NCBI GenBank assembly: GCA_016795505.1 | Contig: JAEUHH010000062.1 | Location: 1 to 64,000 of the forward strand | Length of the DNA: 64,000 nt | Direction of reading: 5' to 3' | Origin: Verrucomicrobiales bacterium | Lineage (GTDB): Bacteria > Verrucomicrobiota > Verrucomicrobiia > Verrucomicrobiales > DEV007 | Shown here: positions 2 to 5,863 of the stretch, one piece after another | Numbering within the stretch: the stretch's first letter is position 1 | Layout of the letters: every line of letters starts with the position of its first letter | Made by a program: the position numbers and the translations under genes | Notes under the pieces: model-generated | The model's database searches: none | What the model was told of the DNA's origin: nothing | Seen by the model: the letters and a program-made list of their open reading frames with translations, nothing else

Positions 2-1231
2 CTCGACGGCAGCAGCGCCCTGCTGGCCTACGACCGGGCGGGCAATGCCACCAAGACCGTGCCCGGCACCGACGGGGATTGGTCGAAAGGCTTCCAACCC
101 GTCTGGGATGCCTGGAATCGGATTGTCGAGGTGAAGGATGAGAACGGCGCCACCATCCAGCAGAACGCCTACGACGGTCTGACCCGCCGCATCACCCGGA
201 AAACCGGTGGCGAGGTCATCCACACCTACTGGAGCGACCGCTGGAAGCCGCTGGAGGAGCGGATCGATGCCGACACCACCGCCGCCCGGCAGTATCTCTG
301 GGGCGAGCGCCCCGGTCACCGGGACGAACTGGTGTTGCGGGACCGCGACACCGACGGGAACGGCACGCTCGACGAGCGGCTCTACGCGACGATGGATTAT
401 TTCAACGGGACCGCCATGCTGGACACCTCGGGAGCCGTTCAGGAACGCTACGCCTATTCGGCCTTCGGGGTGCTGCGGGTGAGGGCGGCGGACTTCACGC
501 CAAAGACCGGGTCGGACTACGACTGGGAGTTCGGGTTCCAGGGGCAGTTCCGGGACGAGGAAACAGGATGGCTCAACTACGGCTACCGGTTCTATGTGCC
601 CGAATTGGGACGGTGGATCAATCGAGATCTTATTGAAGAAATTGGCGGCAAAAATCTGTTCGCTTTGAATCCAAATGACGGCTTGAACTATCACGATCAC
701 CTGGGACTCGCGGAACAAGATTATAGTTGTTGTGACGACCGAACTATTCAAACGGGGCGCGATGAACTAGAAAAGCGCTACAAAGAAGCGCTAGAACAAT
801 TCCGGCGTAGAAACATCCTCCCAGGAGGCAGCGGCATCCGGAGCTGCAAAAACACTTCTTTAGCCGTGATAAATTCGTTTCTGCCATATCCGAAATGTTG
901 GACATGCGAACTGGAAGCTGCCGATAGAATGCCTTACGGTTTTGGAGGTGACCACCAAGTCGTCCTTTGCTTCGCTACCAAAAAAGACGGAACTAAAGGA
1001 AAAGAAGTTAGCTTCGATTTTTGGAGCGGAAATCAAACGGGTGAAGACCCAAAGAATTTTCGAAGCAAGTGGAATTATCCGAAACCCACCGACGCAACCG
1101 TTCCCCCAATCGGCGAGGATTGCAAACATACTATTCCTAAAACCAAAATGGACAGCATGATGAAAAGTCGATGGGATCAAATGGAAGAAATGAGGAGGCC
1201 GATTGGAAAACCCATTGGAAAACATAAATAA
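2..1231 (+). CDS. Rhs-family polymorphic toxin, C-terminal part (5' end outside window)
   Basis: The reading frame is open from the first base, so this is the 3' part of a longer rhs gene; the GTG at 59 is internal. Numbered from that GTG, residues 1-195 are Rhs/YD core ending in the conserved GRWINRD region. The remaining residues form a variable tip encoded by visibly more AT-rich DNA. In the tip, Cys263 (RSCKNTS), His299 (GDHQVV, opening a strand) and Asp320 (VSFDFW) have the order and spacing of a transglutaminase/papain-fold triad. A cysteine-rich PKCWTC motif lies between the first two. The toxin role is inferred from Rhs architecture and the triad is a reading of motifs, not a proven match. 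The next gene overlaps its 3' end by 29 bp, as expected for a toxin-immunity pair. Confidence 0.85.
   Translation, partial: LDGSSALLAYDRAGNATKTVPGTDGDWSKGFQPVWDAWNRIVEVKDENGATIQQNAYDGLTRRITRKTGGEVIHTYWSDRWKPLEERIDADTTAARQYLWGERPGHRDELVLRDRDTDGNGTLDERLYATMDYFNGTAMLDTSGAVQERYAYSAFGVLRVRAADFTPKTGSDYDWEFGFQGQFRDEETGWLNYGYRFYVPELGRWINRDLIEEIGGKNLFALNPNDGLNYHDHLGLAEQDYSCCDDRTIQTGRDELEKRYKEALEQFRRRNILPGGSGIRSCKNTSLAVINSFLPYPKCWTCELEAADRMPYGFGGDHQVVLCFATKKDGTKGKEVSFDFWSGNQTGEDPKNFRSKWNYPKPTDATVPPIGEDCKHTIPKTKMDSMMKSRWDQMEEMRRPIGKPIGKHK
3..639 (+). repeat. Direct repeat R1, copy 1 (Rhs core DNA)
   Basis: This segment is nearly identical to 2537-3173. The match runs through the codons for the GRWINRD region and stops abruptly at 639/3173, exactly where the two Rhs proteins switch to unrelated tips. 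It marks the core/tip boundary at which recombination can exchange toxin ends. Confidence 0.9.
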
Positions 1232-1446
1232 CGCGATGAAAGCCTTCGTGAATTTTCCAACCACGCTTGCAGCTCTGTTTTTTCTTCCGTTTTGCTCTAC
1301 TTCGAAAACCTCCCCAATTCTAATTGCCATCTCCCAAGCAAGGCAATTTCAGGCCTCCTTAGCGCACTTTCGAGACAGGAATGAAGGAGCCTTTCCTAAA
1401 TCCATCAACGATCTTGAAAGCTTCAGCAAAGAGGTGTTAAAGGAGG
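1061..1446 (+). repeat. Direct repeat R2, copy 1 (Rhs tip end plus immunity start)
   Basis: This segment spans the last part of the first Rhs tip and the first two thirds of the downstream lipoprotein gene. It recurs, with small deletions and substitutions, at 4747-5118. The left edge in both places is the shared decamer CGAAGCAAGT. Confidence 0.85.
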
Positions 1447-1649
1447 ATCTATCTTCAAAATGGGTTCTCTACGGAAATCATATAAAAAGTAGTTATATTT
1501 GGGTTTATATCCAACCCGGCAGTCATGCGATGCCCAATTCCGTTGTCTTTTGGAGTCCCGAGCCTGTTGAGGGAAGCGTGATTGTAGGTTTTGCGGACGG
1601 TGATATTGAGGTAATAAAGGACGTTACAACAAGATCTTTAAATAGGTAG
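1203..1649 (+). CDS. Small lipoprotein, candidate immunity partner of the Rhs tip
   Basis: This 148-residue protein starts inside the end of the rhs gene. A hydrophobic segment at about residues 17-31 ends in LPFC, which looks like a lipobox, so a lipid-anchored envelope protein is likely. The mature part contains ISQARQFQ and a FPKSINDL motif that resemble the soluble part of type II pseudopilins of this phylum, but no real pilin N-terminus is present. No enzymatic motif was seen. Position directly behind an Rhs tip, overlap with it and low GC make immunity the best inference. A damaged copy lies at 4886-5101. Function is otherwise unknown. Confidence 0.6.
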   Translation: MENPLENINNAMKAFVNFPTTLAALFFLPFCSTSKTSPILIAISQARQFQASLAHFRDRNEGAFPKSINDLESFSKEVLKEDLSSKWVLYGNHIKSSYIWVYIQPGSHAMPNSVVFWSPEPVEGSVIVGFADGDIEVIKDVTTRSLNR

Positions 1650-1830: not shown

Positions 1831-3696
1831 ATGAGCACAAACACCGCCCGCCGCGAATCGATCACCTACCCCAACGGCAGGGTCGCCACCCTCGGCTACG
1901 GGGCCTCCGACAGCATCGACGACCTCTTCAGTCTCGTGCAGTCCGTCGCCATCCAGGGTGAAAGCGGCCACAAAGTCGCCTACGCCCGTACCGGCCTCGG
2001 CCGCTACGTCTCCATCGCCTACCCACAACCCGCTCTACAGATGTCCATGCTGCGCCCCGGCGGCGGGAGCGAGGGCGACGCCGGTGATCCCTACAATGGC
2101 TACGACCGTTTCGGGCGAGTGCAAGAGATGCGCTGGGAGAAGACCTTCGACCACTCCGTCATCGACGGTTGGCAATGGGGCCACAACCGCGCCTCCAACC
2201 GCACCTGGAAGAAGAACCTCGTCGCACCCTCCAGTCAGGACGAGGCCTACCGCTACGACGGGCTCTATCAGGTCCTCGGCGACGCCCTCGGCACGCTCAA
2301 CACGAACCGCTCCGCCATCGGGGGCGTTCCCGGCGAAGCGGAAGCTTTTCGCTATGATCCCACCGGTAATTGTCGTCACGCTACGCGTCACGACCTGGGG
2401 ATGGGTTCCGCTGCGCTTCACCAATCATTGAGCGCTCTCGCGCCAAGCCAGTGGCTCGGCTACCGCAAAGACGAGGATGGCGCGGTCGCGCTCGATCAGT
2501 CCCGCGCCAACAACCAAGACAACCAGCTCACCCAGATCGACGGCAGCAGCGCCCTGCTGGCCTATGACCGGGCGGGCAACGCCACCAAGACCGCGCCCGG
2601 CACCGATGGGGACTGGTCGAAGGGCTTCCAACCCGTCTGGGATGCCTGGAATCGGATCGTGGCGGTGAAGGATGAGAACGGCGCCACCGTGCAGAAGAAC
2701 GCCTACGACGGCCTGACCCGCCGCATCACCCGTGAATCCGACGGCGAGGTCGTCCATACTTACTGGAGCGACCGCTGGAAGCCACTGGAGGAGCGGATCG
2801 ATGCCGGCACCACCGCCGCCCGGCAGTATCTCTGGGGCGAGCGCCCCGGTCACCGGGACGAACTGGTGTTGCGGGACCGCGACACCGACGGGAACGGCAC
2901 GCTCAACGAGCGGCTCTACGCGACGATGGACTACTTCAACGGGACCGCCGTGCTGAACACCTCCGGAACCGTGCTGGAACGCTACGGCTATTCGGCCTTC
3001 GGTGTGGAGCGGGTGATGGCGGCAGACTTCACGCCGAAGACCGGTTCGGACTACGATTGGGAGTTCGGGTTCCAGGGGCAGTTCCGGGACGAGGAAACGG
3101 GATGGAGCAACTATGGATACCGTTTCTATGTGCCAGAATTGGGACGGTGGATCAATCGAGATCTTATTGAAGAGTTAGGTGGTGAAAATCTCTATTCAAA
3201 CGTTACAAACGATCCCATAAATCATTCGGATCACCTTGGTTTGCGAGTTGTGCCAAGACAGGTGCCGATGAAGCAAACCTCTGGTAGGAGGCCAACCCCG
3301 CGCCCGCCGAGGCCACCTAGACCCTCTCCTTCCGGCGGTGACCCAAGAGGAAATCCGAGATACAACGGGTTGCCTGTCCAACCCCAAATTGGCCCACCCG
3401 ACAAGCCGCCTGGTCCATGGAAGTTTCTACCGCCCGGCGATTGCAGCGATTGGAGGCACAGGCAGTTACAAGACATAGTTAATGACAAATGTAAAAAAGA
3501 CACTGCCTGCAGAGGAGATATGTGCTGTCCAGAATTAGATAGAAGACGAATGCTAAATCTAGAGTGCGCGATGGCTCGAGAAAAAATCAACTTCGAGTGT
3601 TTCAGAGGCGGAGACGGTGTCCACAGGGACGCAGTTGCGAAAGCCTATCGGGCAGTCGCGAATTGCGATAAGTGGCGCAGCAAAAAGGGGTGCTAA
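1831..3696 (+). CDS. Orphan-like Rhs core module with a cysteine-rich toxin tip
   Basis: The ATG at 1831 opens a 621-residue protein. An in-frame TGA lies at 1822-1824, so the frame does not extend upstream and the large N-terminal part of a full Rhs protein is missing. The protein holds YD/Rhs repeats, then the conserved GRWINRD and DHLGL core end (about residues 430-470), a proline-rich linker (PRPPRPPRPSP) and a tip of about 90 residues with at least eight cysteines and a CFRGGDGVH motif. I recall similar CF-GGD-H tips in Rhs proteins listed as novel toxin families, but cannot confirm that here. An ankyrin gene follows after 13 bp. It may be a displaced toxin module expressed only after recombination with the upstream full gene. 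Confidence 0.8.
   Translation: MSTNTARRESITYPNGRVATLGYGASDSIDDLFSLVQSVAIQGESGHKVAYARTGLGRYVSIAYPQPALQMSMLRPGGGSEGDAGDPYNGYDRFGRVQEMRWEKTFDHSVIDGWQWGHNRASNRTWKKNLVAPSSQDEAYRYDGLYQVLGDALGTLNTNRSAIGGVPGEAEAFRYDPTGNCRHATRHDLGMGSAALHQSLSALAPSQWLGYRKDEDGAVALDQSRANNQDNQLTQIDGSSALLAYDRAGNATKTAPGTDGDWSKGFQPVWDAWNRIVAVKDENGATVQKNAYDGLTRRITRESDGEVVHTYWSDRWKPLEERIDAGTTAARQYLWGERPGHRDELVLRDRDTDGNGTLNERLYATMDYFNGTAVLNTSGTVLERYGYSAFGVERVMAADFTPKTGSDYDWEFGFQGQFRDEETGWSNYGYRFYVPELGRWINRDLIEELGGENLYSNVTNDPINHSDHLGLRVVPRQVPMKQTSGRRPTPRPPRPPRPSPSGGDPRGNPRYNGLPVQPQIGPPDKPPGPWKFLPPGDCSDWRHRQLQDIVNDKCKKDTACRGDMCCPELDRRRMLNLECAMAREKINFECFRGGDGVHRDAVAKAYRAVANCDKWRSKKGC
2537..3173 (+). repeat. Direct repeat R1, copy 2 (Rhs core DNA)
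   Basis: This is the second copy of the segment at 3-639, with scattered, largely conservative differences. Identity ends at the same codon as in copy 1, after which the tips share no recognisable sequence. Confidence 0.9.
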
Positions 3697-3709: not shown

Positions 3710-4231
3710 ATGTCAGATGATTTAGAGGAAATCTTGGAATCGATTCGAGAGGGGGACATCCAATTTCTCGAGTTTCTTGCCGAACATTTACCTAGCTTTC
3801 CGTCCGGCATCGAAGACCAAATTTTAGGAACTCGTTGGATCACCTACGCAATTGACGCGGGATCCCTTGAAAGCGTGCTTTGGATGTTGCGAAACGGCAC
3901 AAAAATCGATTTTGAAGATGGCATGGGATACACGGTTCTCCATTCAGCCATTGAAAGTAAGTCCTCGAAAAAATATGAGATTATGGAAAAATTGCTCGAA
4001 TTTGGCGCTGATGTTAACAAGCGGGGGTTCAATGATTGGACGCCCACACACCTCGCTGCCGCGAGAAATGACGTCAATGCTCTGGAAATTTTGGTAAGAG
4101 CAGGAGCAGATCTCAACGCTAGGACTCGGATTGACAATTTTTCTACACCACTCGAACTGGCAAAGTTGGTTGGCACTTCACCTGACGCTGTTAGTTTTCT
4201 GGAAACCGCCGAGTCCACAATGAATCTTTGA
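3710..4231 (+). CDS. Ankyrin-repeat protein, candidate immunity protein
   Basis: The protein has 173 residues. Ankyrin units are readable from about residue 45: GYTVLHSAIES with LLEFGADVNKRG, then WTPTHLAAARNDVNALEILVRAGADLNAR, then TPLELAKL. The N-terminus is acidic and no signal peptide is seen, so a cytoplasmic protein is likely. It starts 13 bp after the Rhs module and its DNA is similarly AT-rich. Ankyrin proteins are a known class of immunity proteins in polymorphic toxin systems, so binding and neutralising the preceding tip is a reasonable inference. No direct evidence of specificity exists in the sequence. Confidence 0.75.
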   Translation: MSDDLEEILESIREGDIQFLEFLAEHLPSFPSGIEDQILGTRWITYAIDAGSLESVLWMLRNGTKIDFEDGMGYTVLHSAIESKSSKKYEIMEKLLEFGADVNKRGFNDWTPTHLAAARNDVNALEILVRAGADLNARTRIDNFSTPLELAKLVGTSPDAVSFLETAESTMNL

Positions 4232-4279: not shown

Positions 4280-4759
4280 ATGATCTTCATCCAAATCGCC
4301 GCTTACCGCGACCCGGAACTCGTTCCCACCATTCGGGACTGCCTCGCCAAGGCTGCCTATCCCGAAGACCTCCGCTTCGGAATTTGCTGGCAGACGGACG
4401 CGGACGACCGGTGCCTTGAACCTTTCTCGAACTCGGACCAGTTTCGGATCCAACGCGTCCCCTGGCATGAAAGCAAGGGACTCTGTTGGGCGCGTTCTCA
4501 AATTCAGAAACTCTACGGCGGCGAGGAATTCACGCTCCAGCTCGATTCCCACCATCGCTTTGCTCCGGGATGGGACAAGTTTCTCCTTGAGTCACTTGAG
4601 GCTTGCGGCAGCGCCAAGCCCATCCTGACCACCTACGCGGGAGTCTATGAGCCCGGCAAGTCAGGAACACCGCCGTCCGGCCCGCTCAAGATGGTGGCGG
4701 ATCGATTTACTCCCTCGGGCACGATTCTTTTCCGGCCTCACCACATCGAAGCAAGTTGA
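4280..4759 (+). pseudogene. Truncated GlcNAc-type glycosyltransferase fragment
   Basis: From the ATG at 4280 the frame gives MIFIQIAAYRDPEL, a CWARS stretch and LQLDSHHRFAPGWD, which fit the eukaryote/bacterial Glycosyltransferase (GlcNAc) family, including its DSH metal-binding motif. An upstream ATG at 4256 is possible but adds an atypical end. The frame stops after about 159 residues, well short of the family length I know (several hundred residues). Its last codons (HIEAS) already lie in DNA that matches the Rhs tip gene at 1061 onward. It is therefore a fragment fused to Rhs debris and probably not functional. Confidence 0.7.
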
Positions 4760-5118
4760 ATCATCCGAAACCCACCGACACAACCGTTCCCCCATTCGGC
4801 GAGGATTGCAAAAATATTCCTAAAACCATAATGGATAGCCTGATGAAAAGTCGATGGGATCAAATGGAAGAAATGAGGAGGCCGATTGGAAAACATAAAT
4901 AACGCGATGAAAGCCATCTTGAATTTTGCGACCGGTCTCACAGCCTTGTTTTTTCTTCCGTTTTGCTCTACTTCGAAAACCTCCCCAACTCTAATTTCAA
5001 TCTCCCAAGCAAGGCAATTTCAAGTTTCTTTAGCGCACTTCCGAGACAGGAATGAAGGAGTCTTTCCTGAATCCATCTACGATCCTGAAAGATTCAGCTA
5101 AGAGGTGTTAAAGAAGGA
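4747..5118 (+). repeat. Direct repeat R2, copy 2 (degenerate)
   Basis: This is a decayed copy of 1061-1446 holding the end of an Rhs tip gene (about 4747-4900, frame lost) and a broken immunity gene. It joins the glycosyltransferase fragment at the decamer CGAAGCAAGT, which points to recombination at short homology. Confidence 0.85.
4886..5101 (+). pseudogene. Broken copy of the candidate immunity lipoprotein gene
   Basis: The frame encodes a close relative of the protein at 1203-1649, sharing the hydrophobic LPFC lipobox segment, ISQARQFQ and the DRNEG stretch. It ends after 71 residues at a TAA where the intact copy has an AAA lysine codon, so the C-terminal half is lost. It marks an old duplication of the tip/immunity cassette rather than a working gene. 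Confidence 0.8.
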
Positions 5119-5207: not shown

Positions 5208-5504
5208 ATGAACAATTTGTTCCGTATCCTATTGGTTTTCTCTATTCTCCTTTCGTCTTGCGACCGGAGTCGTGATTCCGCCAAGCCAAACTCCTCGCAT
5301 CTCCCTCGGATTTCTCTCGGAATAAATATCAAGGAAGCCATCGAAACCCTCGGAGAGCCAGCATTTGCACGCCAGGCCTCACCCGACACAACCGAATGTG
5401 CTTTTATTTTTCAAGATCCCATATCAGATATGCGCATATCAGGATACAAGCTTACTTTTAAAAACGATATTCTCGTGAACATCGATGCTATCTTGGGTCA
5501 GTGA
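5208..5504 (+). CDS. Small lipoprotein with BamE/SmpA-like fold signature
   Basis: The protein has 98 residues with a type II signal peptide ending in LLSSC. The mature part reads LGINIKEAIETLGEPAF followed by a stretch of beta-strand character ending VNIDAILG. This resembles the short helix-turn plus GxP start of the BamE/SmpA (OmlA) fold. The gene sits between two broken Rhs pieces and is AT-rich, so it may be a leftover immunity gene whose toxin tip has been lost. A real BamE role is unlikely given the location. Fold assignment is tentative. Confidence 0.5.
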   Translation: MNNLFRILLVFSILLSSCDRSRDSAKPNSSHLPRISLGINIKEAIETLGEPAFARQASPDTTECAFIFQDPISDMRISGYKLTFKNDILVNIDAILGQ

Positions 5505-5539: not shown

Positions 5540-5863
5540 ATGAGCACGAACACCGCCCGCCGCGAGTCGATCACCTGCCCCAACGGCCGGGTCGTCACCC
5601 TCGACTGCGGGGCCACCGACCGCATCGACGACCTCTTCAGTCTCGTGCAGTCCGTCCCCATTCAGGCAGAGAGCGACGCCGGAGACCCCTGCGATGGCTA
5701 CGACCGTTTCGGCCGCGTCCAGGAGATGCGCTGGAAAATGACTTCTGGCAGTTCGATCATCGACGGCTGGCAGTGGGGCTACAATTGTCCTTCCGCTTCG
5801 TGCAACGACTTGGAGATCCGTTTCGCTTCGCTCGAGAGAGCGGCCAGAATCTCATCTGGCTGA
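5540..5863 (+). pseudogene. Degenerate Rhs core fragment
   Basis: The frame begins with MSTNTARRESIT exactly as the Rhs module at 1831 does, then follows it with an internal deletion (the segment from GESGHKVAY to GGGSEG is missing). It loses similarity after DGWQWGYN (about 5785). The 107-residue frame has no Rhs end and no tip. It is a third, truncated copy of the same module and almost surely inactive. Confidence 0.8.

Follow-up and report, generated by a model that had tools for sequence, protein, structure and literature searches.

An Rhs protein of Verrucomicrobiales with a predicted papain/transglutaminase-like toxin tip and a putative exported immunity partner

What kind of protein is the variable tip of the Rhs gene at the start of this Verrucomicrobiales contig, and in which compartment would it act? 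The gene occupies positions 2..1231 on the plus strand of the window (the whole stretch of 64,000 nucleotides that was analysed) and encodes the C-terminal 409 residues of an Rhs protein (TIGR03696 Rhs_assc_core, E = 2.8e-17; PF05593); the N-terminus is missing because base 1 of the window is the first base of the contig (C9). The Rhs repeat-associated core, i.e., the end of the conserved part, lies at 455..709 (+), with the TIGR03696 match stopping at residue 236 of 409 and a non-conserved tip following directly. Family alignments, AF2 models and fold comparison identify this tip, at 710..1228 (+), as a predicted papain/transglutaminase-like toxin domain of 173 residues, with a conserved core at approximately 710-1081. 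The neighbouring Rhs gene at 1831-3696 has nearly the same core joined to an Ntox16 tip—the core is kept while the tip varies. With an Rhs_assc_core immediately before the tip, tip variation of this kind and a small linked candidate immunity gene, the Rhs protein of the window looks like a polymorphic toxin.

The initial annotation had singled out Cys263, His299 and Asp320 of this open reading frame, and all three are indeed present, encoded on the plus strand at 845..847, 953..955 and 1016..1018, respectively. Numbered within the tip, they become Cys46, the proposed nucleophile at the N-terminus of a helix (residues 46-56), His82, the first residue of strand 2, and Asp103, directly after strand 3, the latter two placed by the AF2 model and the alignment. 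The PKCWTC motif, regarded at that stage as an added feature, is found at 890-907; its CWxC part (C63-W64-T65-C66, 896..907, +), at the start of strand 1, is invariant in the alignment and kept in all ten tips of the family described below. The alignment further highlights the Cys7-Cys8 pair at the start of the first helix (728..733, +), of which Cys8 is aligned as invariant, and Cys87, invariant and located within strand 2 (968..970, +).

A search of genomes from the phylum returned the first relatives of the tip, in G329 (E = 1e-13) and G405 (E = 3e-6), and profile searches later added G585, G622, G516, G477 and G518, then G670 and finally G503 (E = 5e-10). The ten tips, window included, all come from genomes of the order Verrucomicrobiales, where the family is rare (10 of the 387 genomes sampled). 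The end of an Rhs core precedes every tip except that of G503, whose contig starts inside the tip. At identities to the window tip of 19-42% across the aligned members, nine aligned tips (window included) share the invariant residues C8, G16, C46, C63, W64, C66, H82, C87 and D103. The G503 tip, found only afterwards with the profile of nine and not used to define the invariant positions, keeps the triad, the CWxC motif and the remaining cysteines, and therefore provides a fair out-of-sample test. Because nine other Rhs tips keep all three residues, the Cys-His-Asp set is not a matter of chance.

Searches outside these genomes were less productive. An alignment-based contig scan yielded three Verrucomicrobia records for carriers of the family, namely two MAGs of Akkermansiaceae and a Verrucomicrobia MAG, and no relative was found in a single-sequence scan of genome contigs, in a tblastn search of plasmids or among the viral contigs searched. 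Weak matches in other Verrucomicrobiota orders (E = 1e-3 to 0.1) were discarded, those inspected being unrelated proteins or wrong frames. The tip and the aligned family had no match among Pfam, NCBIfam and PDB sequences; a sub-threshold GP38 Pfam row for one member (E = 0.033) was taken as chance. Specifically, the eight tips scanned (all but those of G670 and G503) gave no match to Transglut_core (PF01841) at E up to 10, no Pfam match to NLPC_P60 (PF00877) and, across the whole of Pfam-A, none to Tox-PL-2 (PF15643), Gln_amidase (PF15644) or Tox-PLDMTX (PF15645). The profile search against polymorphic toxin families that had been proposed as a check thus gave no Pfam or NCBIfam match. Judged by its sequence, the tip represents an unnamed Rhs toxin family.

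To what kind of fold could such a family belong? AF2 models from the same four sequences were obtained for the window tip (mean pLDDT 59.5, pTM 0.56) and for the G622 tip (locus L055; pLDDT 70.2, pTM 0.71). Both predict a long helix, a helix started by the Cys, a strand, a strand started by the His and a strand ending just before the Asp—in the models, the helix-Cys, strand, His-strand, strand-Asp order of papain/transglutaminase enzymes. The earlier placement of Cys, His and Asp before, at and after strands is borne out in both models, with Cys at a helix N-terminus, His opening strand 2 and Asp immediately past the end of strand 3. When the G622 model was compared with known structures using VIA-align, rows 1-27 were all structures that we take, from their titles and established knowledge, to belong to the papain/transglutaminase superfamily (Z 5.9 to 3.8), and the first unrelated row was number 28 (Z 3.5); Z values below 8 may reflect a common arrangement and all values here are below 6, and the fold argument rests on the uniformity of this list, not on any single Z. 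The best match was TglA of S. pyogenes (9crn; Z 5.9, rmsd 4.4, 113 aligned), followed by LapG (4fgo; Z 5.8, rmsd 4.0, 113 aligned), with arylamine N-acetyltransferases, RavJ, VASH1, the transglutaminase 4xz7 and the pseudomurein endoisopeptidases PeiP (Z 4.6) and PeiW (Z 4.5) among the other neighbours. In the comparison of the window model, the top rows were SpvD (Z 5.3) and RavJ (Z 5.0), and lower rows contained NTAQ1, CPR-C4 and a Josephin-type clippase, mixed with unrelated rows.

Other comparisons were less informative. Foldseek E-values were not significant for either model, the list for the G622 model including the papain-like proteins NEDD8 protease, SpvD and MOA. An hhalign comparison of the family with Transglut_core and NlpC_P60, represented by transglutaminase and NlpC/P60 domains from the same genomes, was not significant and no better than column-shuffled decoys; one alignment with Cys on Cys and His on His lacked significance and was not used. 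A viral structure library gave nothing convincing. No thioredoxin-like structure appeared in the fold comparison of the window or the G622 model, and a thioredoxin-like role for CWxC was set aside, the models being without such a fold. Taken together, the invariance across ten divergent members and the structure comparison support the papain/transglutaminase-type fold and Cys-His-Asp triad suggested in the initial annotation, and the tip, as modelled, looks like a papain/transglutaminase-type cysteine enzyme.

The gene directly downstream bears on where such an enzyme would act. With an ATG start, the proposed exported immunity protein spans 1239..1649 (+); its signal-peptide-like N-terminus (1239..1298, +) reads MKAFVNFPTTLAALFFLPFC. 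The signal sequence is cleaner from this ATG, which follows the toxin stop by 7 nt, than from TTG 1203, an alternative start overlapping the toxin gene (GAGGAGG at 1192-1198, with a spacing of only 4 nt). The overlap of partner and toxin genes assumed earlier holds only if TTG 1203 is used, and with the ATG the partner starts 7 nt past the stop. The RNA structure at the gene junction is not unusual. The usual lipobox after a signal sequence is [LVI][ASTVI][GAS]C, the residue at -1 being [AGS]. The window partner reads LPFC, and lipid anchoring of this copy is uncertain because this non-canonical lipobox has Phe at -1; of the earlier proposal of a lipid-anchored partner, export is well supported and lipidation of the window copy is not.

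The homologous partners extend this picture. Canonical lipoboxes occur in four of them (G585, IIAC; G516, LGGC; G518, MAGC; G670, TLGC), the partners of G329 and the window are lipoprotein-like, and the remaining ones carry a signal peptide (G477), an N-terminal anchor or signal (G503 and G622) or two TM helices (G405). Export was scored by eye, with no signal-peptide program involved. On this basis, a partner that is exported or membrane-anchored lies directly downstream of the tip in 10 of 10 cases—not ten independent events, because the partners are related to each other—versus an exported or TM partner in 8 of 26 other Rhs tips of the same genomes, three of these control tips being without a candidate partner (Fisher p = 3e-4, computed for 9/9 vs 8/26). 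At the level of the family, the envelope-directed partner proposed at the outset is thus supported. A profile of four partner mature domains next ranked the partners of G518, G503, G329 and G670 above 962 background ORFs, with E > 1 for the last two, and a seven-member profile built without G503 retrieved the G503 partner at E = 6.8e-5, again ahead of the 962 background ORFs. Judging from these ranks, eight of the partners are probably members of a single divergent family that features a P...DL motif and a Trp; the partners of G622 and G405 differ from it. The partner is probably the cognate immunity protein of the toxin, and we refer to it as a putative one.

Further Rhs remains lie downstream in the window. 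The Ntox16 tip of the second Rhs gene (1831-3696) matches at E = 1.7e-15, and a small ankyrin-repeat protein at 3710-4231 is its likely partner. A decayed second copy of the toxin end and partner, the latter cut by a nonsense codon, lies at 4746..5118 (+), with 87% DNA identity over 373 bases; it adjoins a partial GlcNAc glycosyltransferase ORF (PF11397, 4256-4759), an arrangement resembling a recombination scar. At 5208-5504 there is a small lipoprotein-like ORF (MNNLFRILLVFSILLSSC...) whose BamE-like match is sub-threshold (E = 0.13) and which may be an orphan immunity gene. A further Rhs fragment at 5540-5863 (MSTNTARRESITCPNGRVV...) soon loses its frame, and the region resembles an array of Rhs relics.

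How could the tip leave the producing cell? The only full-length relative, G329 (2035 aa), starts with MKLSFASSRLARLAACLALPFVLLPSSLRADC, a Sec signal, and the start of its partner gene overlaps the toxin stop by 4 nt. In G622 and G518, the tip is preceded by a signal peptide and no more than a short remnant of the Rhs core. The T6SS sheath protein TssC/VipB (PF05943) was absent in 8 of the 9 carriers tested (G000 included, G503 outside the test), most of these genomes being drafts. Given the Sec signal of G329 and the lack of a T6SS sheath in most carriers, the tip most likely travels via Sec and the periplasm, and the exported partner after every tip suggests the envelope of competing bacteria as the toxin's site of action. 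The invariant cysteines would suit disulfide bonds made in the periplasm, or might hold a metal.

Several loci are of interest in their own right. In the mini-Rhs proteins encoded at L055 (405-860 and upstream), L050 and L088, the Rhs shell is missing and a Sec signal peptide runs directly into the final stretch of the Rhs core (YxPxxGRWLNRDPI), followed by a toxin tip. A T6SS sheath protein (VipB/TssC) is present in a single tested carrier, G516, the genome of L137. Exported partners also follow other cysteine-rich Rhs tips (6-11 Cys) at L070, L077, L084, L087 and L093, and Cys counts are higher in tips whose partner is exported than in the remaining tips (one-sided p = 0.04, in a small sample).

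The explanation that we consider probable is an envelope-acting papain/transglutaminase-like Rhs toxin, exported by Sec and paired with an exported immunity protein. We infer the catalysis, disulfides, immunity and site of action in this model, which would run as follows. Within a polymorphic Rhs system, the tip would serve as the toxin, namely a small thiol enzyme of the papain/transglutaminase superfamily using Cys46-His82-Asp103; the Rhs shell would leave through Sec, and the tip would act in the envelope (periplasm) of neighbouring diderm bacteria. There it would most likely be a thiol hydrolase, attacking an amide or peptide bond in either peptidoglycan or a protein of the envelope; the four further invariant cysteines would most likely form disulfides that stabilise the domain once it has left the cytoplasm. 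The directly downstream gene would encode the cognate immunity protein, itself exported and either anchored or released in the periplasm, where it would bind and block the toxin. A bolder version, which we entertain only tentatively, is that the tips constitute a toxin family of their own within the superfamily—disulfide-stabilised, Sec-exported on Rhs shells or as stand-alone signal-peptide mini-Rhs proteins, killing via an envelope component that known Rhs toxins do not attack and matched by an exported immunity family.

Other readings of the same data differ in the bond or the compartment concerned. A peptidoglycan amidase or endopeptidase with an NlpC/P60- or C71-like role, cutting stem peptides or crosslinks of the recipient wall and being neither protease nor protein modifier, would agree with the exported partners, with PeiP and PeiW among the structural neighbours and with the known occurrence in Rhs proteins of papain-like envelope toxins, Tox-NLPC/P60 for instance (PMC3482391); we find it somewhat unlikely, as the third residue is Asp where many NlpC/P60 enzymes have His, and the tip has neither an NlpC_P60 profile match nor a wall-binding domain. 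Modification of proteins in place of bond cleavage, by a transglutaminase, deamidase or acyltransferase, is an unlikely alternative: the nearest structures include transglutaminases (9crn, 4xz7) and arylamine N-acetyltransferases, and the C-H-D triad is that of transglutaminases, yet the superfamily is functionally mixed and sequence does not separate transamidation from hydrolysis. Regarding the compartment, the exported partner might guard only the producer while the toxin transits its own periplasm, the true target being extracellular or cytoplasmic. Such transit follows from the Sec signal of G329 and the missing T6SS in most carriers; in these genomes, however, 18 of the 26 other Rhs tips manage without an exported partner while presumably using the same exit route, and we think this reading quite unlikely.

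The remaining alternatives question the enzyme itself. The conserved cysteines might form a metal site or a CxxC redox centre, the Cys-His-Asp likeness being secondary, since CWxC is spaced like a CxxC motif and its two cysteines, together with C8 and C87, bring the invariant cysteines other than C46 to four. We give this little credence, because the cysteines are no more invariant than His and Asp and neither fold comparison contains a thioredoxin-like row. An inactive or non-toxic domain, e.g., a peptide-binding anchor, has precedents in Rhs toxins with inactive transglutaminase domains (PMC3482391), but these known domains are N-terminal and have lost triad residues; here, a variable C-terminal tip keeps the triad in 10 of 10 members and has a linked partner, making inactivity extremely improbable. 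An envelope thiol hydrolase, neutralised by its exported immunity protein, is the prediction that we regard as most likely.

The locus provides an unnamed, predicted toxin/immunity pair in which the residues worth testing are well defined. It comes from Verrucomicrobiota, and our literature search found little on the delivery of such toxins in this phylum. The exported partners offer a direct handle on the toxin's place of action; should envelope action prove true, Rhs tips would reach the periplasm without a T6SS and would add a thiol-enzyme activity there.

How does this pair compare with known systems? Tox-PL1/2/3, Tox-PLC39, Tox-NLPC/P60 and Tox-TGase share with the tip a C-H-D triad, a papain-like fold, which in the tip is a predicted one, and a position at the C-terminal tip of Rhs or other polymorphic toxins (PMC3482391); in contrast, the tip has no Pfam or NCBIfam profile match to any of them, carries the extra invariant C8, CWxC and C87 together with a linked exported partner, and was found here only in Verrucomicrobiales. 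The transglutaminase core (PF01841; TglA, 9crn) resembles the tip in its Cys at a helix start, its HxW-like strand and its Asp after the next strand, and provides the best structural match (Z 5.9), whereas its hhalign comparison with the family was not significant. The second-best match (Z 5.8), LapG of peptidase family C93 (4fgo), is a periplasmic enzyme with a C-H-D triad (PMC4359373) and has the fold order predicted for the tip, the same triad type and the periplasmic setting proposed for it; unlike the tip, LapG serves as a housekeeping protease of adhesins, contains calcium in its structure and is no toxin, and no sequence relation was found. The VgrG2b C-terminus parallels our proposal as a periplasm-acting antibacterial effector with exported immunity of the PA0261 family, whose members are lipoproteins or TM-anchored or periplasmic proteins, depending on the species (PMC6899460), but it is a metallopeptidase of unrelated sequence fused to a T6SS spike. 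The 'new effector class' put forward in the initial annotation is too strong, because papain-like and transglutaminase-like toxin domains are already known in polymorphic toxins, Rhs proteins included (PMC3482391), as are envelope-acting effectors with exported lipoprotein or TM-anchored immunity (PMC6899460); what is new here is the toxin family and its pairing with the partner family.
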